From NCBI RefSeq assembly GCF_000226975.2, contig NZ_CP019285.1:62001-126000 (forward strand): DNA of 64,000 nucleotides. Reading direction: 5' to 3'. Shown in pieces: positions 716-11,536 of the stretch; within the stretch, counting starts at the first letter, position 1, and every line of letters starts with the position of its first letter. The position numbers and the translations under genes are program-made. Under the pieces are notes generated by a model. The model saw only the letters and a list, made by a program, of their open reading frames with translations. It did no database searches and was not told the DNA's origin. This DNA comes from Halobiforma lacisalsi AJ5 (lineage in GTDB: Archaea; Halobacteriota; Halobacteria; Halobacteriales; Natrialbaceae).

Positions 716-1513
716 TCAGGCCTCGAGCGCCAGCCCGGCCTCCCGAAGCGCCTCGTCGACCGAGAGGTCGTCGTGGACGACGCCGGAGACGGCCGTCGCG
801 ATGGCTTCGGGGTTCTCGTGCTGGAAGATCGACCGGCCCATCGAGACGCCGGAACCGCCGGCGTCCATCACGCCCCGGACCATCTCGATCGTCTCGCGGT
901 CCGTGCCCTTCGCGCCCCCGGCGATGACCACGGGCAACCGGGTCGACTCGACGACGTGCTGGAAGCTCTCGGCGTCGCCGCTGTAGCCGGTCTTGACGAG
1001 GTCAGCGCCGAGTTCCTCGGCGAGTCGGACGGCGTGACCCAGCGCCTCGGCGTCCTCCGAATCGACGCCGGGCCCGCGGGCGTAGGCCATCGCCAGCACG
1101 GGGATCCCGAACCGGTCGGCGGCCTCGGTGACCTCCGCGAGCTGGGTGATCTGGTCGGGCTCGTGGTCGGAGCCGACGTTGATGTGGAAGGAGACGGCGT
1201 CGGCACCGGCCCGGATCGCCTCCTCGACGGTCCCGGTCATGCGTTTGTCCTGCTCGTCCGGGCCGATCGTCGTCGAGCCGTTCAGGTGGACGATGTACCC
1301 CTGTCCGTTCTTGTTCTCGTGGACGCGGGGGGCGATCCCCTTCTGCGTGAGAACGGCGTCGGCCCCGCCGCGGGTGACCCCGTCGATCGTCGATTCGATG
1401 TCCTTCAGCCCCTGGACCGCACCCATCGTGATGCCGTGGTCCATCGGGACGATGACGTAGTTACCGTCTGTACCGATCCGCTCGAGTCGTGCCTGTGTTC
1501 CTGTGGTAGTCAT
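716..1513 (-). CDS. 2-amino-3,7-dideoxy-D-threo-hept-6-ulosonate synthase (class I aldolase family, AroA')
   Basis: The protein has 265 residues, the usual size for the archaeal FbaB/DhnA-type class I aldolases. Visible active-site residues are Asp25 in PMDHG, Tyr144 in AMAYARG, and the Schiff-base Lys174 in DLVKTGYSG; a phosphate-binding GGAKG and a GRSIFQ loop follow. In archaea this family includes both fructose-bisphosphate aldolases and ADH synthase, the first step of the alternative route to 3-dehydroquinate. It lies 24 bp after trpA on the same strand, with no room for a separate promoter, which favours the aromatic-pathway function over glycolysis. The partner 3-dehydroquinate synthase II is not next to it within the window. 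The start is an ATG at 1513. The family is certain; the substrate is inferred from context. Confidence 0.85.
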   Translation of the reverse strand: MTTTGTQARLERIGTDGNYVIVPMDHGITMGAVQGLKDIESTIDGVTRGGADAVLTQKGIAPRVHENKNGQGYIVHLNGSTTIGPDEQDKRMTGTVEEAIRAGADAVSFHINVGSDHEPDQITQLAEVTEAADRFGIPVLAMAYARGPGVDSEDAEALGHAVRLAEELGADLVKTGYSGDAESFQHVVESTRLPVVIAGGAKGTDRETIEMVRGVMDAGGSGVSMGRSIFQHENPEAIATAVSGVVHDDLSVDEALREAGLALEA

Positions 1514-1537: not shown

Positions 1538-2464
1538 TTATGGCTGTTCTGGTTCCGGTGCATCTTCCCCATCGACCGTGAGGGAGTCCGCGCCCCGACG
1601 CGCGCCGCGCTCGAGCTCGGCGGCCTTGGCCTCGAGCCGTTCGGCGGCCGCGTCGGTATCCGAGCCGTGCTCCGCGATGATGTCGACCAGCGCGCTACCG
1701 ACGATGACGCCGTCGGCCCCGGCTTCGACGATCTCGGCCGCGTGGTCGCCCTCGCTGACGCCGAAGCCGACCGCCTTCGGGACGTCGTACTCCTCGAGGC
1801 GCGCGAGGCTCTCGTGGGTCGCCGACGAGACGTTCGCCCGCGCGCCGGTGGTCCCGAGGCGGGCCTGAACGTAGGCGAAGCCCGAGACCTGCGACATGAT
1901 GTCGTCGAGACGCTGCCCCTCGGTGGTCGGCGCGATGATGAAGACGAGATCGAGGCCGTGGTCGTCGCAGGCGTCCCGTAACGGGCCGGCCTCCTCCGCG
2001 GGGAGGTCGGGGACGATGATTCCCGAAAGGCCGGCATCGGCCGCACGCTCGACGAAGGGACGAACGTCGGGCTTGTCTCGCGGCTTCGCTGCTCGACCGT
2101 CCGAGGCGCGTGGCGCCTCGCTTCCTCCATACTGGAGGATCATATTGTAGTACGTCATCACCAGCAGCGGCGCCTCCGTCTCGAGGTCGTCGACCAGTTC
2201 GAAGAAGCCCTCGGGTGTCGTGCCGGCCGCGAGCGCGCGGTTGATCGCCGCCTGGATCGTCGGCCCCTCGGCGATCGGCTCCGAGAACGGAAGCCCGAGT
2301 TCGATCAGGTCCGAGCCGCCGCGATCCAGGGCCTCGACGTACTCCCTGGTGTCCTCGAGCGAGGGATCGCCCGCGGTGATGTAGGTGATGAGCGCGGGGT
2401 GGTTCTCCCGGATGGCGGCCTCCACGTCGCTGTCGTACTCGTTCTCGGGTACTGCGTCACTCAT
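1538..2464 (-). CDS. trpA: Tryptophan synthase alpha chain
   Basis: TrpA cleaves indole-3-glycerol phosphate to indole, which is passed to TrpB. The TIM-barrel signatures are clear: [12 protein letters not shown] near residue 25, [12 protein letters not shown] at 52-63 with catalytic Glu55, and [11 protein letters not shown] and VGSALVD near the end. At 308 residues it is longer than the usual 260-280. Most of the excess is an insertion at residues 114-132, between YYNMILQYG and [10 protein letters not shown]. The insertion carries two short DNA hairpins and has a counterpart in trpB. The loop that holds catalytic Asp60 in Salmonella (DPLADG) reads EPIAEG here, so that position is Glu66. The start ATG overlaps the trpB stop by four bases (ATGA), implying coupled translation. 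Confidence 0.97.
2069..2125 (-). repeat. In-frame palindromic insertion in trpA
   Basis: This stretch encodes about 19 residues (114-132) absent from ordinary TrpA. It holds a perfect 8-bp stem with a 3-nt loop (2103-2110 with 2114-2121). A second, weaker hairpin at 2080-2092 (GCGGC-TTC-GCTGC) lies inside a motif running from GTCTCGCGG to GCTCGAC (2075-2097). The second motif also occurs in trpB and, less exactly, in the pyruvate kinase gene. Confidence 0.7.
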
Positions 2465-3810
2465 GCATCGAACACCTCCACGTCCGGCGCGGCCTCGAGA
2501 TCGCGCTTCTCGGTCTCCTCGAGCACCGTCTCGAGGTCCTTGTCGCCCCGGCCGGAGACGTTGACGACGACGAGGTCGCCGAGTTCGTCAGTGCGCTCGT
2601 CTCGCGGGCTCCGCCCGCTCGACGTATCCGCGGCGACCCCCGCCGCGCGCTCGAGATAGCCCAGCGCGTGACTCGACTCCAGTGCCGGGATGATCCCCTC
2701 GAGGTTCGACAGCCGGTGGAAGCCGTTCAGCGCGGCGTCGTCGTCGACGTTGACCGGCGTTACCCGCCCGGTCTCGACGAGGTGCGCGAGTTCGGGGCCG
2801 ACGCCGGCGTAGTCCAGGCCCGCACTGACGCTGTGGGATTCGACGATCTGGCCGTCCTCGCTCTGGAGGAGTTTCGTCATCGCGCCGTGGAGGACGCCGT
2901 CGGTCCCCGTCGAGAGCGTCGCGGAGTTGGGTGCGAGTCCCTTCTCGGCGTCGATCTCGAGGCTCGAGCCGCCGGCCTCGACGGCGACCAGATCCACGTC
3001 TTCATCGGGCACGAACGCGTGGAACGTCCCCATCGTGTTCGAGCCACCGCCCGCACAGGCGACGACGCTGTCGGGGAGCCGTCCCGCTTGCTCCCGTACC
3101 TGCCGTCGTGCCTCCTCGCCGATGACTGACTGAAAGTCCCGCACGAGTTTCGGGAACGGGTGTGGGCCGACGATCGAGCCGATGACGTAGTGGGTGTGCT
3201 CGACGGTGGTCGCCCAGTCACGCATCGTCTCGTTGATCGCCTCCTTCAGGGTTCCCGACCCCGCAGTTACGGGGTTGACCTCCGCACCGTTCATCCGCAT
3301 CCGGTAGACGTTCGGGCGCTGACGGTTGATGTCCGTTCGCCCCATGTAGATCTCACAGGGCATGTCGAGGTGGGCCGCGGCCATCGCCGTCGCCGTGCCG
3401 TGCTGGCCGGCCCCGGTCTCGGCGATGATGCGCTCTTTGCCCATGTACTTCGCCAGCAGGACCTGTCCGAGCGCGTTGTTCAGTTTGTGCGCGCCGCCGT
3501 GAAGCAGATCCTCGCGTTTGAGGTAGATCTCGCGGTCGTATCGTTCGCTCAATCGATCCGCGCGCTGCAGCGGCGTCGGTCGCCCACCGAAGTCCCGCAT
3601 CCGCTCGCGGAACTCGTCCATGAACCCGTTCTCGTTCTCGAGCACGTAGCGTTCGTAGGCGTCCTCGAGTTCCTGTAGGGCGGGCATCAGCGCCTCGGGG
3701 ACGTACTGACCGCCGTAGTCGTCGCCGAAGGTGGCGTCGGCGTTACGTTCCCGTTCCCGCTCTCGCTCCCGGCTCGATTCGTGCGTCCGTTCGTGATCTC
3801 CCGTGCTCAT
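2461..3810 (-). CDS. trpB: Tryptophan synthase beta chain
   Basis: TrpB condenses indole with serine using PLP. The PLP lysine is Lys109 in [13 protein letters not shown]; the phosphate-binding loop [10 protein letters not shown] and the SHALGYL and VSGRGDKD motifs are all present, so it is a TrpB1-type subunit. It has 449 residues against a usual 390-420. The extra length comes from an N-terminal tail with an Arg-Glu dipeptide run (residues 13-22, encoded by a hexamer repeat) and an insertion near residues 390-408, before [13 protein letters not shown], that contains a 6-bp perfect hairpin. Its start overlaps the trpC stop by four bases and its stop overlaps the trpA start the same way, so the three genes form one translationally coupled unit. 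Confidence 0.97.
2590..2640 (-). repeat. In-frame palindromic insertion in trpB
   Basis: It encodes the extra residues [14 protein letters not shown] near position 395-408. A perfect stem GCGGGC (2604-2609) pairs with GCCCGC (2613-2618) across a 3-nt loop. The flanks GTCTCGCGG and GCTCGAC (2599-2623) match the trpA insertion and are read in the same frame at the PRD residues. Confidence 0.7.
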
Positions 3811-4637
3811 GCGTTCTCACTCTCGTCGTGTGTCGTCTGCGTCTCCGTCTCCGTTTCCGGTCGCCGCTCCACGGTCGTCAGCCGCCGCGTGTTCGCGGCG
3901 ACGTCGACCTCGTCGTCCGCGCCGTGGTCCATGATCGCGCTCCCGACCAGCAACGCGTCGGCCCCGGCCGCCCGCATCCGGCGAACGTCCGCCGGACTCG
4001 AGATGCCGCTCTCGGCGATCAACGTCACGTCCTCGGGCACGTGTGGCGCGACGGACTCGAAGGTCGCCAGATCGACCTCCAGTCGTGCCAGGTCCCGGTT
4101 GTTGACCCCGATGATCTCGGCCCCGGCCTCGAGGGCGGCCTCGAGTTCCCCGCGGTCGTGGACCTCGACGAGCGGCTGGAACCCGCGCTCGCGGGCCGCC
4201 GAGACGAGCCCCTCGAGGTCGTCGACGAACCGTGCGATGACCAACACGAGGTCGGCCTCGACGACGTCTAGGTGTGCTTCCCGAAGGAGGAAGTCCTTGC
4301 GCAAAACGGGGACGTCCACCGCCTCGCGAACACGCCGGAGCGCGTCGGGGGTGCCGCCGAAGTGGGACGGTTCAGTGAGCACCGAGATCGCCGCCGCGCC
4401 GCCGTCGACCATCGCCTCGGCGAGGTCGACGGGGTCGGCCTCACGAGTCCCCTCGGCGGTCGGGCTCGTCGGCTTCACTTCGGCGATGACGGGGACGCGC
4501 CCGTCGGCCTCCGCGCGCTCGAGCGCTGCGGGCAGCGAGCGCGGATCGACGTCGATGCGCTCGTCGCCGCCCGGCCGCTCCCGGGCACCCTCGAGGATCG
4601 ACTCCACCGCGGGAGCGAGCGCCGTATTAGAGGTCAT
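3807..4637 (-). CDS. trpC: Indole-3-glycerol-phosphate synthase
   Basis: TrpC closes the indole ring to give indole-3-glycerol phosphate, the substrate of TrpA/TrpB. The family motifs are present in order: [16 protein letters not shown] near residue 50, [49 protein letters not shown], and [12 protein letters not shown]. It has 276 residues, slightly long because of an acidic Thr/Glu tail after RRLTTVERR. It is the first gene of trpC-trpB-trpA-aldolase. The ATG at 4637 lies a few bases from a TGTACA box, so the transcript is probably leaderless or nearly so. The product acts in the cytoplasm. Confidence 0.97.
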
Positions 4638-4670
4638 TATTGTACATCGACGTACTCATATGTACAAAAG
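4638..4670 (-). promoter_or_regulatory. trp operon promoter with paired TGTACA operator boxes
   Basis: Two TGTACA hexamers (4641-4646 and 4661-4666) lie exactly 20 bp apart, inside 8-bp inverted arms TTGTACAT (4640-4647) and ATGTACAA (4660-4667). The proximal box touches the trpC start codon and the distal box overlaps the expected TATA position about 27 bp upstream. TGTACA is the TRP-box core bound by the tryptophan repressor TrpY of Methanothermobacter. Function here is inferred from that match and the position. Confidence 0.7.
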
Positions 4671-4742
4671 CCTTGCGCATCCTCGGTTCCAACGGCCGGC
4701 GGGACCGGCGAATATTCATGCCCGTCCCCCGTATCCCGGCGC

Positions 4743-5225
4743 ATGGAGGACGTTACCGACGCCGGCATCTACGCGCGGGAATCGTCGTATCTCGACCGTT
4801 ACGTCCAACTCGGCGCCGCCAGCGGGCGCGTCCTGAGCGTCTCGTTCCCCGAGAAACCCGACGAGCAGGCCACCGAACCCGCGGAGGGGGACCAGCCCGT
4901 TCTCGATCGGATCTTCGAGTACCTCGAGGGCCTCGAGGAAGTGACGTTCGACGACGTACAGGTGGCACTGACCGTGCCGACCGACCAGCGGGCCGTCCTA
5001 GAGCAGGTTCGCGAGATTCCCTACGGCGAACAGGTCGGCGTCGAGGCGCTGACGCGGATGACCCCGGGGCTCGACTCGGACGACGAGGACGACCGAATCC
5101 AGGTCCGGACGGCACTGGATGCGAACCCCGCTCCGATCCTGATCCCCGATCACCGGGTACGCGACGGTCCCAGTGCCGCACCGCCGGCCATCGAACAGAA
5201 ACTCCGCTCGCTCGAGGGGCTGTGA
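4743..5225 (+). CDS. MGMT-family (alkyltransferase-like) protein lacking the acceptor cysteine
   Basis: The 160-residue protein ends in the DNA-binding half of the O6-alkylguanine-DNA alkyltransferase fold: IPYGEQVGVEALTRM near residue 92, then ALDANPAPILIPDHRV at 124-139 and a C-terminal IEQKLRSLEGL. In true alkyltransferases this last motif reads PCHRV, with the methyl-accepting Cys. Here the position is Asp136, so direct methyl transfer is not possible. Bacterial and fungal ATL proteins carry Trp or Ala at this site and flag alkylated bases for nucleotide-excision repair; a similar non-catalytic role is the simplest inference. The ATG at 4743 follows a short upstream region shared divergently with trpC. 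The N-terminal 60 residues resemble the small N-domain only loosely. Confidence 0.75.
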   Translation: MEDVTDAGIYARESSYLDRYVQLGAASGRVLSVSFPEKPDEQATEPAEGDQPVLDRIFEYLEGLEEVTFDDVQVALTVPTDQRAVLEQVREIPYGEQVGVEALTRMTPGLDSDDEDDRIQVRTALDANPAPILIPDHRVRDGPSAAPPAIEQKLRSLEGL

Positions 5226-5248: not shown

Positions 5249-5872
5249 TCACTCCTCGAGCAGATCGATCAGTAGCTTCGACTCCGCGGACCGCAGGCGC
5301 TGTGAGAGCGCGGACTTCGACATCTCGAGGCGATCGGCGAGCGCCTCGAACTCGATGGTTCGTGGTTCGTCGTAGTAGCCGGCAGCGATCGCGACGCTGA
5401 GTACTTCCTCCTCGCGGGCGGTCAGCAGCGAGAGGTCGGCGGTCCGTACGTCGGTAAACTCCGGGGAGTTCGACCGCGTCAGCCGTCGCAGCGATACGCG
5501 ACCGACCACCTCGCGGAGGTCGGCGATCAGTTCCCGGAGGGTCTCCCGATCTGCGGGGAACGTCGTCACGACGACGCGTCCGTCGTCGACCGAACTGAAG
5601 TGGGGGACGCACCTGTGCCGGTGAAACGTCGAACAAACACACCGCTCGCGGGACGAGAGGTCGGTCTCGAGTTGGGTGACACCGTCGTCGTCCTCGCAAC
5701 ACGAGACGACGTAGCAGGTGTCCCCGTGCACGTGGTGATCCAGGAGGGCTTCCTCGTCGTGGTGGGCGATCGGACACCCGGTCTCGCTGAGATCGAACTG
5801 AAGTTCCGCACGAAGGTCTCGTTGTCTTTCGTCGGAGACGGCAGGCTGCGTTTCGCGCACGTTACTCGTCAT
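5249..5872 (-). CDS. HTH-10 (Bat/DmsR-type) transcriptional regulator
   Basis: The 207-residue protein has a C-terminal HTH-10 domain (about residues 140-205: LTAREEEVLSVAIAAGYYDEPR, then EALADRLEMSKSALSQRLRSAE), the bacterio-opsin-activator type common in haloarchaea. The N-terminal half is rich in Cys and His (CPIAHH, CYVVSCCEDD, RCVCSTFHRHRC), suggesting a metal- or redox-sensing site. It lies after the DMSO-reductase-like operon on the same strand. DmsR of Haloferax volcanii is a related regulator controlling such an operon, so control of the upstream genes is a reasonable inference. A TATA-like CTTATGG near 5900 would give a leaderless message from the ATG at 5872. The specific target is not shown by the sequence. 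Confidence 0.8.
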   Translation of the reverse strand: MTSNVRETQPAVSDERQRDLRAELQFDLSETGCPIAHHDEEALLDHHVHGDTCYVVSCCEDDDGVTQLETDLSSRERCVCSTFHRHRCVPHFSSVDDGRVVVTTFPADRETLRELIADLREVVGRVSLRRLTRSNSPEFTDVRTADLSLLTAREEEVLSVAIAAGYYDEPRTIEFEALADRLEMSKSALSQRLRSAESKLLIDLLEE

Positions 5873-5984
5873 ATCGCACAGTCGGCAGTCCCGCCATAAG
5901 GCTTCGCGTCTCTCTCCTATGCAGCAGGAATGACCGTTAATCTGTAACTGTAATCCCGATGTTAGCGATCAATCATTTGGGAAG

Positions 5985-6022
5985 TGCCGACAAAATATTC
6001 CATATGGTAATTTTTGTCGGCA
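5985..6022. repeat. 38-bp near-perfect palindrome between the Mo-oxidoreductase operon and its regulator
   Basis: Arms TGCCGACAAAA (5985-5995) and TTTTGTCGGCA (6012-6022) are perfectly complementary. The middle CCATATGG (6000-6007) is itself palindromic about the same centre, so 16 of 19 positions pair. It could be a two-fold operator site or a hairpin terminator; it is about 65 bp past the last operon gene and about 110 bp before the regulator start. Confidence 0.75.
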
Positions 6023-6087
6023 GTTCGCCTCCGCCCGACCTTGACTCCCCATCGACGAGGGGCGGTCCCGTCCGACGACGGGTGGGA

Positions 6088-6636
6088 TCAGCGCTGCTCC
6101 GCGCTGATCGCGGCCTCGGTCGCCGTCGCCAGTGCCTCGTAGTAGGGCTCACGCGTCTCCGCTCTGACAGCCTCGAGGAACTCCCCGGTCCACTGCCGGA
6201 GGTGTTCGTCGAGGAACTGCTCACAGGCGTCGACCTCCCCGCGCTCGAGCAGGTGCGCGGCGAACTCGAGTTCGGTCGCGATGTGATCGGGCAGGTCGGG
6301 CCAGTCGGGGTCGAGACCGAGGTCGTAGGCCCGGTACCACTCGACGGCCGCGCGGGTCGTCGGCCCGAGCACGTCGCCGTCGTCGCGGTAGACGCTCTCG
6401 TAGGGCGGACACGGCGGGTCGCCGGGCCCGACGAACAGTCGTGCGTGTTCCGTCCGGAGGCGTTCGATGTTGGCTTCCGTGACCGCTGGATCGACCTCCT
6501 CGAGCAGTTCGGTCGTCACCGCGTCGACCACGTCAGCGGTCGGTTGCCGCCAGCAGCGGGCCAGCATCGCGTAGCCGGTGGCCAGTTCCGCGGCCGCGGG
6601 TTCCGTTTCCGCCCGTTCGGAACGCACGCCACTCAT
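6088..6636 (-). CDS. TorD/DmsD-family molybdoenzyme chaperone
   Basis: The 182-residue all-helical protein carries the family signatures PPYESVYRDD near residue 78 and the PDHIATELEFAAHL box near residue 116. Proteins of this family bind the Tat signal of a molybdoenzyme and hold it until cofactor is loaded. It is the last gene of the operon and its ATG overlaps the stop of the membrane subunit by four bases. That position fits a dedicated chaperone for the catalytic subunit encoded at 8797-11283. No membrane or export signal is seen, as expected for a cytoplasmic chaperone. Confidence 0.88.
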   Translation of the reverse strand: MSGVRSERAETEPAAAELATGYAMLARCWRQPTADVVDAVTTELLEEVDPAVTEANIERLRTEHARLFVGPGDPPCPPYESVYRDDGDVLGPTTRAAVEWYRAYDLGLDPDWPDLPDHIATELEFAAHLLERGEVDACEQFLDEHLRQWTGEFLEAVRAETREPYYEALATATEAAISAEQR

Positions 6637-8009
6637 CGGCGATCACCGTCCGTTCCGTCGGCGACGTAGCCGCCGTCCGCGACGGCCGCGTCTGGCGGTG
6701 TTTCCGCGTCGGGGTCGCTCGCCTCGTCTCGCGCGGCGGGCATGGGCTTGCGGCCGCCGGGCTGGACGGGCAGGAACCGCAGGCCGAGCGTGACGATCAG
6801 CGCACCGACAGCGACGATGCCGAGCGTCACCAGCAACTCGATCAGCGTCGGCGTGTAGCTGCCGACCGTCGCCCAGACGTCGGAGCCGATGCCCGTGTAG
6901 TCAGTACCGGTCGTAACACCGGGGGAGGCGTCGATGTTCAGGTCACGGTAGCCCGTGAAGATCAGGTACACCCCCTCGAAGAGGATGCCCACGATCGCCG
7001 CGACGCTGGCCGCGAAGACGACGCCCACCTTCCGCCGCCAGGACGGCACCGCAAGCAGGGCGATCGGCACCGCGCCGCCGACGACCGTCCACAGCCAGAA
7101 GTGGACCGTGTCGCCGACCAAAAAGGCGCTCGTGATCGACCAGAACTCGAAGTTCGCGGCCCACGCGTGGGGCAGCCGCTCGGCAGCCACCAGGTAGACG
7201 ACGTGGACTGCGACGAAGATGCCGAGCACCTTCCCGAGTTCCGGCACCAGTTCGCGAGGCATCCGGAACCGCGTGACTCGGTCGACGACGATCGCCGTCA
7301 CCAGCAACAGCGCCAGTCCAGACACCAGCGCCTTCATGATGAACATCGGCGCGACCAGCGGGTTGAACCAGTCGCCGCGGCCGATCTGGGTCGCGAAGAT
7401 CCAGCCCGTCACCGAGTGCAACGCGATCGCCAGCGGCATCGCGACGGCGGCCGCCCAGAAGGCGAGCTTTCGGTCGCGCTCGCGGCCTGCGGGAGTATCC
7501 TCGACGCCGAACGCCAGTTGCGACCCCATCTTCGCGAGGTCGCGCCGGGTCAACAGCCAGAGGTAGCCCACGTTGAACAGCCCATAGAGGAGCACGATCC
7601 CGAAGTCCCAGACCATCGGCGACCGGAAGTCCGGCGACGTCAGGAACCCGGTGACGCGACTCGGCTTCCCCAGGTCCGGCAGGATCAACAGCCCGGCGAC
7701 GACGATACAGCCCAGGCTCACCAACACGCCCAGTGCGGCCAGGCTGTCGTAGCGCTTCGAGTGGAAGAACTTCGGCGCACTCGAGATGATCAGGCCGCCG
7801 GCCGAGAGGCCGATGAAGAAGACGAACAGCATGATGTACAGCCCCCAAGAGAAGACGTTGTCCATGCCGGTGACGGCGAGGCCACGGCTAAGCTGGTAGC
7901 CCCAGGCGGCGAGGCCGGCGACGATGAGGACGCCGAGAACGGCGAGCCACGCCTTGCCACGGGTACCGAACTGCGGGACGACGACACCGGAATCCCGTTG
8001 GGTGCTCAT
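6633..8009 (-). CDS. NrfD/PsrC-type membrane anchor subunit of a molybdopterin oxidoreductase
   Basis: At 458 residues with about ten hydrophobic segments, this is the quinol-interacting integral membrane subunit of the complex iron-sulfur molybdoenzyme type. The first segments (AWLAVLGVLIVAGLAAWGYQLSRG, then SWGLYIMLFVFFIGLSAGGLI) match NrfD proteins, where the region around FIGLSAGG is strongly conserved. A short hydrophilic tail of about 35 residues ends the protein. It would pass electrons between menaquinol and the Fe-S subunit encoded just upstream. Start and stop both overlap neighbours by four bases (ATGA). Confidence 0.9.
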   Translation of the reverse strand: MSTQRDSGVVVPQFGTRGKAWLAVLGVLIVAGLAAWGYQLSRGLAVTGMDNVFSWGLYIMLFVFFIGLSAGGLIISSAPKFFHSKRYDSLAALGVLVSLGCIVVAGLLILPDLGKPSRVTGFLTSPDFRSPMVWDFGIVLLYGLFNVGYLWLLTRRDLAKMGSQLAFGVEDTPAGRERDRKLAFWAAAVAMPLAIALHSVTGWIFATQIGRGDWFNPLVAPMFIMKALVSGLALLLVTAIVVDRVTRFRMPRELVPELGKVLGIFVAVHVVYLVAAERLPHAWAANFEFWSITSAFLVGDTVHFWLWTVVGGAVPIALLAVPSWRRKVGVVFAASVAAIVGILFEGVYLIFTGYRDLNIDASPGVTTGTDYTGIGSDVWATVGSYTPTLIELLVTLGIVAVGALIVTLGLRFLPVQPGGRKPMPAARDEASDPDAETPPDAAVADGGYVADGTDGDRR

Positions 8010-8800
8010 TCGCTCTCACCTCCGTCGGTTGCGACACCGTCAGGATTGCCGACTTCCCTCTGTTCGGTTCCGCCCGGCGGCTCGTAGGTAATCTCCCCAC
8101 GCCGGTCCGGTGGATCCTCGAGTTCGCTCTCCATCTCGTTCCCCAGGTGGTTTCGGCCGGGTGTCATCTCCCCGCTGATGTAGTAGGTGTTCGGATCCGT
8201 CTCGAGATCCTCGAGGAGTTGTTTCGATTCGTACTTCCGGACGTACCGCGAGACCGTGCTGTCGGGGTCGTCGAGGTCGCCGAAGATCCGGGCGCTCGAG
8301 GGACACGCGATCGTACAGGCCGGATCGAGCCCCTCGTCGAGCCGGTGACTACAGAACGTACACTTCTCGACGACGCCCCGTTCGCGCTGCTCGACGTTGC
8401 CCGTCCCGTCCGGAGCCGGCGACTGCGGCTCGTCGTAGTTGAATACCCGTGCGTTGTACGGGCAAGCGCTCATACAGTACCGACAGCCCATGCACTTGTC
8501 GTAGTCGATCGCCACGATGCCGTCGTCGCGCTTGTAGGTCGCGTTGACCGGGCACACCTTCACGCAGGGTGCGTTCTGGCAGTGCTGACAGGCCGTCGGC
8601 TGGTACTCCATCGAGAGCGTGCCGTCGCCGCCCTCTTCGGGGTATTCGCCTTCCGGCGTGTCCATCCCCTCGCCGCCGACGGTGAGGATCCGGTTCCAGG
8701 CGTTGCCGAGCGAGACGTTGTTCTCGTTCTTGCAGGCCACGGCACAGGCGTGACAGCCGATACACCGCTCCTGATCGATTACCATTCCGTAGTTCGTCAT
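8006..8800 (-). CDS. Four-cluster ferredoxin-like electron-transfer subunit (DmsB/NrfC type)
   Basis: The 264-residue protein has four cysteine groups: CIGCHACAVACKNEN near residue 15, CQHCQNAPCVKVCP, CMGCRYCMSACP, and CTFCSHRLDEGLDPACTIACP. This is the pattern that binds four Fe-S clusters in DmsB/NrfC/PsrB subunits. It links the membrane anchor to the Mo catalytic subunit and probably travels outside the membrane in complex with it, since it has no export signal of its own. It is coupled by ATGA overlaps to both neighbours. The C-terminal 45 residues are acidic and low in complexity. Confidence 0.93.
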   Translation of the reverse strand: MTNYGMVIDQERCIGCHACAVACKNENNVSLGNAWNRILTVGGEGMDTPEGEYPEEGGDGTLSMEYQPTACQHCQNAPCVKVCPVNATYKRDDGIVAIDYDKCMGCRYCMSACPYNARVFNYDEPQSPAPDGTGNVEQRERGVVEKCTFCSHRLDEGLDPACTIACPSSARIFGDLDDPDSTVSRYVRKYESKQLLEDLETDPNTYYISGEMTPGRNHLGNEMESELEDPPDRRGEITYEPPGGTEQREVGNPDGVATDGGESE

Positions 8801-11283
8801 TGTGCATCACCCCCAGTCGGGAGTTCCTCGAGCCAGTCCGGCGATTCCGGATCGTCGTACTGGCTCGTATCCACGTCCGCCGAGACGGGTTCGACCTCGA
8901 CGCGCGTGTCGTAGAAGGCGAAGTTCTCGATCGTCTCGCTGACCTCCGTGTGAGTGAGGTTGTTGTGGTGGCCCGCGACGTAGTCGTCGGCCCACCATCC
9001 CTGGTCGGTATTGACCATTCCCGGCCGGTAGGCGTCGTTGTACTTCGCTTTCACGACCATCTCCCCGCGGTCGTTGTAGACCCGGACGTAGTCCCCGTCA
9101 GAGATGCCACGTTCCCTGGCATCCTTCGGGTTGATGTCGAGTTCGGGTTCGGGGTTGAGTTCCCGCAGGGTCGGATTGCCGGCCCACTGCGAGTGGATCC
9201 GCCAGCGGCTATGGCCCTGCATGAACATCAGCGGATACTCATCGGCCTGTTCGTGATCATCTGCGGACAGGCCTTCGACCGGTTTCGGGACCTCGAGCGA
9301 GACGCCCTTTTCCGAGGGGGCGTCCTCGTCGTAAATCTCGAGACGGCCGGTCGACGTGTTGAACTCGTCGGTGAAGACGACTTCGTCCGTCTCGACGTGG
9401 ACCGTCCCTTTCTCGCGGAGTTCCTCGAAGGTGAAGCGATCCTCCGCCTCGAGTATCGTCCGCAGCAGTTCCGTCCGATCCCGCTCGAAGTGCTCGCCGT
9501 ATCCCAACCGTTCCGCGATTCGCGTGAGCATCCAGTGGTCGCTCTTCGAATCCCACAGCGGTTCGTGGGCCGGTTCGCGGTACATGACGTGGGGGTGTTC
9601 GCCGGCGCTGGTGATGTCCTCCCGCTCCGTCCAGTGGGATGCCGGCAAGACGATGTCGGCGTGCTGAACCGTCGGCGTATGGTGGATGTCGGCGACTGCA
9701 ACCAGATCGAGGTTCTCGAGCGCCTCGAGCCACCGCGTTCGGTCCGGCATCTGGTTGGCGACGAAGTTCGACGACTGTGCGTACATCATCTTGATCGGAT
9801 GCTCGTCGTCGCCCTCCATCGCCGAGAGGATCCCCTTCTGCTGGAGACTGCGAACCCCTGAGCTACCTTCGACTGTGCCGTAATCGCTGTTGTAGCCGGA
9901 GCCAGCGAACCGGCCGCCGGTGATCGAGCCGCTACGGCCGTAGTCTCCGGTCAGCGCCAGCAGGATTGCGTACGCCTGGCCGAAGATGTGGCCGTATTTA
10001 TACCGGTCGATGCCGAGGCCGGTCATTATTCCCCCAGGTCCGCGAGTGGCGAGCCAGCGAGCCGTCCGCCGGACGTTCTCGGCCTTGACTCCTGCCGTGT
10101 CTTCGATCGCCCCGGGTGCGTACTCGGCCGCGACGGCCTCGATCTCCGACAGTCCGGTCGCCACGTCGTATCCGTCGACCTCGTACTCTCCGAAGAGCGC
10201 GTATTCTCCGTGGGTTTCGGGCTCGAGCGGAACCGGCTCGCCGGTCTCCTCGTCGAGGGCGACGGGTGTTTCGTCGTCGCCGTCATCGAACACGTCACTC
10301 GTTTTGAGGAGTTCTCCAGTATCCTCTCGAACCAGCGCCGGCGCAAGCGTCCGTTCCCGCAGGAACGCTTCGTCGGCGAGTTCCTCCTCGAGAACGGTGT
10401 GGATCATTGCCAGCGCGAGGTAGACGTCTTTCCCCGGTTTCACTGGCAGCCACAGATCGGCCTTGGCCGCCGTCTGATTGTAAACCGGATCGATCACGAC
10501 GACCTTCGCGCCGTTTTCGATCGCATCGAGGAGGAAGCGGGCGTCCGGGTTCAGCCGGCTCCTGAAGACGTTTCCGCCCCAGATGACGACCGTGTTTGCG
10601 TTCTTGAGGTCGGTCCGCATGTTCGTCGGCGTATTGAAGTAGCCGGCCCCGGTGATACGACGGAAGCCCAAGCCGAGGTTGATGTCGATCGACCACGACA
10701 TCATCGTGCCGCCGAACAGATTGGCGAGACGGGAAAACACGGTCCCGTTGATCCCGCTCCCGCCGGATCCGAGTTCGAAGTAGACGCTCTCCGGAGCGTA
10801 CTCCTCGCGGATCCGTTCCATTCCGTCGGCGACGTAATCGAGCGCCTCGTCCCAGGACACCTGTTCGAAGTCGGCGTCCGGGCCGCGCCCTTCGGGGTTC
10901 GGCTCCTCCGGCGACCAGTCGCTTCGCACCATCGGATACTTCAACCGGTTCGGATTGTACGTCCGCTCGAGATGGGACTGACCCAGCGTACAGGCCCGCC
11001 TGAACTCCTCTCTATCTGGGACCTGCGGTTCGACTTTCCTGATCTGCCCGTCCCGAACGTGGACGTCGAGCGGACAGTGGCCCCGACAGTTCGGCGAACA
11101 GTAACTGCTGATGACCCTGTTCTCGTCGAGAAACTGCTCTACGGCGTGTGAGCTGTCTCCCTGCTGGAGCGACTGCAGGTACCGGTTGCCACCGATCCCC
11201 AGCACCCCGGCGGCTGCTCCAGCCGAAAGCAATACGGACCGTCTGCTCACTCCTGATTCAGTCCGCTCTTCCTGCTTACTCAT
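8797..11283 (-). CDS. Tat-exported molybdopterin oxidoreductase catalytic subunit (DmsA-like)
   Basis: The 828-residue protein opens with a Tat signal (SRRSVLLSAGAAAGVLGIGG, residues 13-32). The Fe-S motif follows at Cys62, Cys66, Cys70 and Cys98, and then the full Mo-bisMGD fold runs to a C-terminal dinucleotide-binding domain (FMQGHSRWRIHSQWAGN). DMSO/TMAO reductases, polysulfide reductases and related enzymes share this architecture. The operon layout (A, B, NrfD, TorD) and the HTH-10 regulator resemble haloarchaeal dms loci, so DMSO/TMAO respiration is a fair guess, but the substrate cannot be read from sequence. I chose the ATG at 11283 over the GTG three codons earlier; it overlaps the previous stop as ATGAGTAA. 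Confidence 0.9.
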   Translation of the reverse strand: MSKQEERTESGVSRRSVLLSAGAAAGVLGIGGNRYLQSLQQGDSSHAVEQFLDENRVISSYCSPNCRGHCPLDVHVRDGQIRKVEPQVPDREEFRRACTLGQSHLERTYNPNRLKYPMVRSDWSPEEPNPEGRGPDADFEQVSWDEALDYVADGMERIREEYAPESVYFELGSGGSGINGTVFSRLANLFGGTMMSWSIDINLGLGFRRITGAGYFNTPTNMRTDLKNANTVVIWGGNVFRSRLNPDARFLLDAIENGAKVVVIDPVYNQTAAKADLWLPVKPGKDVYLALAMIHTVLEEELADEAFLRERTLAPALVREDTGELLKTSDVFDDGDDETPVALDEETGEPVPLEPETHGEYALFGEYEVDGYDVATGLSEIEAVAAEYAPGAIEDTAGVKAENVRRTARWLATRGPGGIMTGLGIDRYKYGHIFGQAYAILLALTGDYGRSGSITGGRFAGSGYNSDYGTVEGSSGVRSLQQKGILSAMEGDDEHPIKMMYAQSSNFVANQMPDRTRWLEALENLDLVAVADIHHTPTVQHADIVLPASHWTEREDITSAGEHPHVMYREPAHEPLWDSKSDHWMLTRIAERLGYGEHFERDRTELLRTILEAEDRFTFEELREKGTVHVETDEVVFTDEFNTSTGRLEIYDEDAPSEKGVSLEVPKPVEGLSADDHEQADEYPLMFMQGHSRWRIHSQWAGNPTLRELNPEPELDINPKDARERGISDGDYVRVYNDRGEMVVKAKYNDAYRPGMVNTDQGWWADDYVAGHHNNLTHTEVSETIENFAFYDTRVEVEPVSADVDTSQYDDPESPDWLEELPTGGDAQ

Positions 11284-11536
11284 CGTCGTCACCCCCCTCG
11301 AGCGGCCGGTCGTCGACGCCGAACTCCTCGAGGACGGCGTCGTGATATTTCTCGTGGAACTCCGCTTCCGACATGCGACCCGCGCTGACCCGCACGGCGT
11401 CCCTGCTCATCTCCTTGCCGAGGTCCGTATCGTACGGACTCTCCTCGAGGAGGTCGTCGGCAGTCTCCTCCCAGACCGCGGGATCGACGCCGACGGCGTC
11501 CTCTTCGATCGGTTGCTCGTCGTCTGATGTTCCCAT
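11276..11536 (-). CDS. Small acidic protein leading the molybdoenzyme operon
   Basis: The 86-residue acidic protein has a conserved-looking central stretch (YDTDLGKEMSRDAVRVSAGR, then MSEAEFHEKYHDAVLEEFG). I have the impression that related short segments occur at the N-termini of haloarchaeal Fe-S ferredoxin subunits and as separate small proteins before molybdoenzyme genes; I cannot verify this here. There are no cysteines, so it does not hold a cluster itself. It overlaps the catalytic subunit by eight bases and shares its promoter, so a role in assembly or docking of the complex is likely. Exact function is unknown. Confidence 0.75.
   Translation of the reverse strand: MGTSDDEQPIEEDAVGVDPAVWEETADDLLEESPYDTDLGKEMSRDAVRVSAGRMSEAEFHEKYHDAVLEEFGVDDRPLEGGDDDE

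Follow-up and report, generated by a model that had tools for sequence, protein, structure and literature searches.

Tryptophan synthesis in haloarchaea has no established regulator, although LrpA2 has been suggested, and the promoter of the trpCBA operon of Halobiforma lacisalsi AJ5 raises the question of whether one can be traced from its operator. In the window (the whole stretch of 64,000 nucleotides analyzed here), the initial annotation noted a pair of TGTACA hexamers at this promoter, likened it to the TRP box of Methanothermobacter, and suggested a conserved or convergent tryptophan repressor. What, then, binds these boxes, and to what effect?

Architecture of the trpC Promoter

The two outer TGTACA boxes lie on the minus strand at 4641-4646 and 4661-4666, between the TATA element and the trpC start codon, with a start-to-start pitch of exactly 20 bp and symmetrical 8-bp inverted arms (TTGTACAT, 4640-4647; ATGTACAA, 4660-4667), just as first described. 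The minus-strand promoter sequence reads CGCAAGGCTTTTGTACATATGAGTACGTCGATGTACAATA-ATG, with the ATG at 4637-4635. The proximal box (box 3) had been said to touch the start codon; it is indeed near the ATG, but 3 nt separate the two. Similarly, both boxes are real, but they are not the full element: a third, central box at 4651-4656 of the minus strand (AGTACG on the coding strand, GTAC at 4652-4655), placed exactly 10 bp from both outer boxes, had been overlooked. The whole trpC element is three GTNC boxes at a 10-bp pitch, not a pair.

This element is visible in 40 related trpC promoters whose start could be read, which represent 36 distinct sites, including the window's own. In all 36 distinct haloarchaeal promoters, the G, T, and C of the central GTNC (positions 11-14) are invariant, as are the first T, the G, the C, and the last A of the distal box (box 1, 4661-4666). 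Box 1 had been said to overlap the TATA position, and it covers part of the 3′ half of a conserved element, CTTTTGTA (4663-4670, minus strand; consensus CTTWTGTA), whose position and consensus suggest a TATA role and which keeps an invariant TT, then A/T, then TG across the 36 promoters. Immediately upstream, CGCAAG (4672-4677, minus strand) is a probable BRE by its placement, with CAA invariant in the same set. The usual TATA distance puts the transcription start at or just after box 3, which lies over or adjoins that expected start; the trpC mRNA is therefore probably leaderless.

Downstream, the minus strand carries trpC (indole-3-glycerol phosphate synthase; 3807-4637; PF00218, E 2e-67), trpB (tryptophan synthase beta chain; 2461-3810; assigned by PF00291 and operon position), and trpA (tryptophan synthase alpha chain; 1538-2464; PF00290, E 5e-85). 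The last operon gene seen, 24 nt past trpA, encodes a DeoC/LacD-type aldolase (716-1513, minus strand; PF01791) that probably catalyzes the first step of the haloarchaeal aromatic pathway. Gene order is the same in the Halobacterium trpCBA-OE1472F operon, where the gap is 25 bp (PMC4162585).

On the other side of the array, a divergent gene (4743-5225, plus strand) encodes a protein with an MGMT-type DNA-binding domain (PF01035; 26.5 bits, just below the Pfam cut-off of 27). It is unlikely to be what the array controls, because it has its own TATA-like GAATATTCA near 4709, and because the array is kept where the sequence further upstream is unrelated (e.g., loci L003-L005). Beyond this gene, positions 5249-11292 hold a DMSO/TMAO-respiration cluster with a DmsR-type regulator (HTH_10 and DmsR_N); the ORFs beside the regulator read, from their sequence only, as a chaperone, an NrfD-like membrane subunit, a ferredoxin subunit, and a molybdopterin catalytic subunit.

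Rarity and Conservation of the Array

Within the 64-kb window, the TGTACA pair is a single site at up to two mismatches (0.20 expected). Genome-wide, the exact pair with an N14 spacer occurs once in 4.38 Mb, and the search that the initial annotation had proposed for further such sites returned no second one even when one mismatch was allowed (control 0). Among 146 genomes of the order, the exact outer pair is found in 59, against 1 for the reversed control, well above the random frequency that the annotation had set as the alternative. These genomes hold 66 exact outer pairs, 52 of which (in 51 genomes) also have the central GTNC. Of 30 exact-pair loci inspected, 27 lie directly upstream of trpC; the other three are the trpD promoter of its genome (L082) and two non-trp loci (L089 and L098). 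One of these, the haloarchaeal non-trp region L089 (1501-1660; G040:C55), contains eight clustered TGTACA hexamers at spacings of 8 and 12, not 10.

The pitch is equally distinctive. When triples with at least 14 of 18 matches were compared at spacings from 7 to 14, 37 of the 40 trpC promoters reached the threshold at spacing 10 and none did so at 7-9 or 11-14. Could the TGTACA pair still be a chance or promoter-core feature with no dedicated regulator? TATA conservation does explain part of the conserved bases in box 1, and the hexamer by itself occurs 7 times in the window. Chance occurrence is nonetheless rejected on the uniqueness in the genome, the excess over the reversed control, the clustering of exact pairs at trpC, and the pitch of 10 bp only; with three boxes held at this pitch across the order, and the same pitch, and no other, repeated at trpD and in methanogens (see below), an origin in chance or in the promoter core is extremely improbable.

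Within its own genome, the array is nearly restricted to trp promoters. A wider regulon was sought there by pattern search and yielded no further convincing sites, with 18 matches at up to three mismatches against 11 in the control; the trpD promoter (C1:2994579) is the only explained one among the non-trpC matches at three mismatches. Another match in this genome, TGAACA-N4-TGTACA-N4-AGGACA (L120, 1501-1526; G000:C1:2624414-2624439), lies upstream of a gene for a predicted membrane protein and is at chance level, yet has the right phase.

A Second Array at trpDFEG

The remaining tryptophan genes, to which the annotation had also pointed, form a separate trpDFEG operon whose promoter bears a related array. 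It reads TGTACT-N4-TGGACA-N4-AAGACA-N4-CGTACA-N4-TGTTCA-CT-ATG (C1:2994569-2994614), i.e., five boxes at the same 10-bp pitch, the last of them 2 nt before the ATG, and it was recovered independently as the three-mismatch match mentioned above. In trpDFEG operons of 30 haloarchaea, retrieved via trpF, nearly every trpD promoter shows a related spacing, L141 being the exception. Some of the boxes are weak: 11 of the 30 promoters pass the 14/18 triple threshold at spacing 10, and none at other spacings. The boxes are thus kept at the trp promoters of related species, as elements at trpC and as a related array at trpD.

The TrpY Family in Haloarchaea

The core of the TRP box is reportedly TGTACA, and this hexamer is also seen here beside trpY. 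We recognized TrpY in Methanobacteriales by its position, divergent from trpE with TGTACA between the two genes, and the protein matches NCBIfam NF053754 (TrpY family). The genome under study has one strong match to this profile (238.2 bits against a cut-off of 180, covering profile positions 1-163 of 163), so that the TrpY-like regulator whose absence would have spoken against the annotation is present. Its gene (G000:C1:1181238-1181726) encodes 167 aa with an HTH and an ACT-like domain. Across the order, NF053754 scores over the cut-off in 139 of 146 genomes and finds a match in all 122 near-complete ones; for the phylum as a whole, a Methanobacteriales alignment used as the query finds a match in 122 of 124 near-complete genomes. 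With TrpY universal in the order, no correlation between its presence and that of the boxes can be drawn.

The putative C-terminal ACT domain gives weak matches to Pfam ACT_7 (E 0.00027) and to ACT (E 0.0018), each under the gathering score, and the ACT match of Methanobacteriales TrpY is likewise under it. Between the haloarchaeal loci compared, the protein is at least 75% identical; against its Methanobacteriales counterpart, identity is 35%. Five residues of the presumed recognition helix (V53, D54, R55, V57, and V58) are kept in more than 95% of the 67 proteins aligned. No solved structure of a TrpY relative was found.

The genomic setting of trpY varies. In Methanobacteriales, the gene adjoins the trp operon and diverges from it, and in one family of the window's phylum (f24), it diverges from trpC, with no clear array seen in the trpY-trpC intergenic region. 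Another family (f26) is without TrpY and has trpC internal to an operon. In haloarchaea, trpY is unlinked to trp, and in some of them (L190, L197, and L198) it appears, as read from the sequence, to lie directly between the end of a hisB-like gene and a pyrE-like gene. The Methanothermobacter protein (MtTrpY) is said to control its own gene, and the annotation had pointed to the homologue's own gene as a place for further boxes. None was found upstream of trpY in 30 haloarchaeal loci, and autoregulation of trpY in haloarchaea is rejected on this ground.

Phased Boxes Beyond Haloarchaea

Arrays of the same pitch are found in methanogens. Among 29 trpE upstream regions from phylum members other than haloarchaea, a triple of at least 14/18 is present in 9 at spacing 10, and no region reaches that level at 7-9 or 11-14; in 200 rounds of dinucleotide shuffles, the mean was 0.005 and the maximum 1. 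One of the loci (L259/L280) has two exact TGTACA boxes 20 bp apart before trpE. In Methanobacteriales, three trpY-trpE intergenic regions (L182, L184, and L185) contain TGTACA-N4-TATACA, in 10-bp phase; taken as a set, the Methanobacteriales have triples at spacing 10 in 2 of 31, no clear excess, so the match with Methanobacteriales concerns pairs only. Of the two origins offered by the annotation, “conserved” fits better than “convergent”, judging from the 10-bp-phased TGTACA-like arrays at methanogen trp promoters and the TGTACA-N4-TATACA of the Methanobacteriales trpY-trp region.

Two arrays outside the trp genes were also observed. In a non-haloarchaeal phylum member, L258 (1501-1526; G241:C185:38425-38450) has TGTACA, TGTACA, and TGTTCA at a 10-bp pitch directly upstream of an ABC-transporter ATPase gene, possibly part of a tryptophan uptake system. 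At L257 (1501-1526; G214:C1:1254429-1254454), a three-box array stands between a TATA-like element and a gene with a weak L-lactate permease match (21.5 bits over the first 90 residues; cut-off 27).

A Candidate TrpY Operator

The array is probably a TRP-box operator bound by haloarchaeal TrpY, which together with tryptophan would repress trpCBA and the aldolase gene and, through the related array, trpDFEG. TrpY as the binder, tryptophan as the ligand, and repression as the effect are what we infer. The three TGTACA-like palindromes, one helical turn apart, would share one side of the helix between the TATA element and the mRNA start. With tryptophan held in its ACT-like domain, TrpY may bind the boxes side by side, and its coverage of all three on that side would exclude TBP, TFB, and RNA polymerase, which is why end-product repression fits. 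Exclusion would in turn repress trpCBA along with the aldolase gene, which belongs to the common aromatic pathway, and the related array would do the same for trpDFEG. According to the summary in PMC6737238, the M. thermautotrophicus TrpY attaches to TRP boxes and, with tryptophan, represses trp; and the two trp operons of Halobacterium show induction when aromatic amino acids are missing (PMC4162585).

Several observations weaken the assignment to TrpY, namely the identity of only 35% to the Methanobacteriales protein, the unlinked and boxless haloarchaeal trpY, and the lack of a clear array in f24. Moreover, Thermococcus kodakarensis has a TrpY homologue that shares 42% identity with MtTrpY yet plays no part in trp regulation (PMC6737238), and the function of haloarchaeal TrpY therefore cannot be read from homology alone. 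The array might instead serve a different regulator, an Lrp/AsnC protein such as LrpA2 (Trh1) being the most plausible candidate, with TrpY doing something else, as in Thermococcus. The separation of haloarchaeal trpY from trp would agree with this, LrpA2, put forward as the regulator of aromatic amino acids, goes up 14.9-fold when these are missing (PMC4162585), and in Thermococcus trp is governed by the unrelated Tar at TGGACA-N8-TGTCCA (PMC6737238). We nevertheless regard a different regulator as unlikely, given that the box is the TGTACA of the TRP box, that the same 10-bp phasing occurs beside trpY in Methanobacteriales, that no near-complete genome of the order lacks TrpY, and that its gene is trp-linked in one family of the phylum.

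The sign of regulation is a separate matter. TrpY might bind the array mainly as an activator, or without tryptophan, with no end-product repression, and the sign does vary among archaea, Tar being an activator of trp in Thermococcus (PMC6737238). The boxes here overlap the TATA element and reach toward the start codon, a position suited to steric repression, and the rise of both Halobacterium operons without aromatic amino acids also argues against activation, which makes this reading rather improbable. End-product repression by TrpY remains the reading we prefer.

Comparison with Known Systems and Significance

The closest known system is the TrpY/TRP box of M. thermautotrophicus (trpY-trpEGCFBAD), which shares the TGTACA core, the trp promoter location, and a TrpY-family protein with an HTH and an ACT-like domain. 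The differences are in organization: haloarchaeal trpY is apart from trp and boxless, whereas the MtTrpY gene is adjacent, divergent, and reportedly autoregulated; the haloarchaeal trp genes form two separate operons, that of trpC including the aromatic-pathway aldolase gene; and the trpC promoter has three boxes of fixed pitch and is apparently leaderless. Tar (TK0271) is likewise an archaeal trp-operon regulator with a TGNNCA-type half site, but it is an activator outside the TrpY family, released by erythrose 4-phosphate (PMC6737238); the spacing of its site is unlike the 10-bp array, and its operator pattern does not occur at the trpC element. LrpA2/Trh1 resembles the proposed regulator in being linked to amino acids and induced in Halobacterium when aromatic ones are absent, but the passages of PMC4162585 consulted leave its targets open and give no DNA site at the trp operons. 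No earlier report of the element in haloarchaea was found in the literature searched, the older Haloferax trp operon papers lying outside it.

A broader proposal, for which we see even odds, is that the TRP box is a phased array and not a single hexamer, with TrpY assembling side by side on boxes one helical turn apart, the number and quality of the boxes setting the strength of control (three strong ones at trpCBA, five weaker ones at trpDFEG). The operator-regulator pair would go back to the ancestor that Methanobacteriales and Halobacteriota share, and would have been kept at trp promoters through the shift to leaderless haloarchaeal promoters, the regulator gene having left the operon.

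Archaeal operators conserved over large distances are seldom documented, and the little-studied TrpY/TRP-box regulatory system looks ancient. For haloarchaea, organisms well suited to genetic work, the analysis names one candidate regulator gene and two exact operators. It also suggests a function to test for the haloarchaeal and methanogen members of the TrpY family, which PMC6737238 names as still unexamined. The trp genes would, moreover, share their switch with the entry enzyme of the aromatic pathway.
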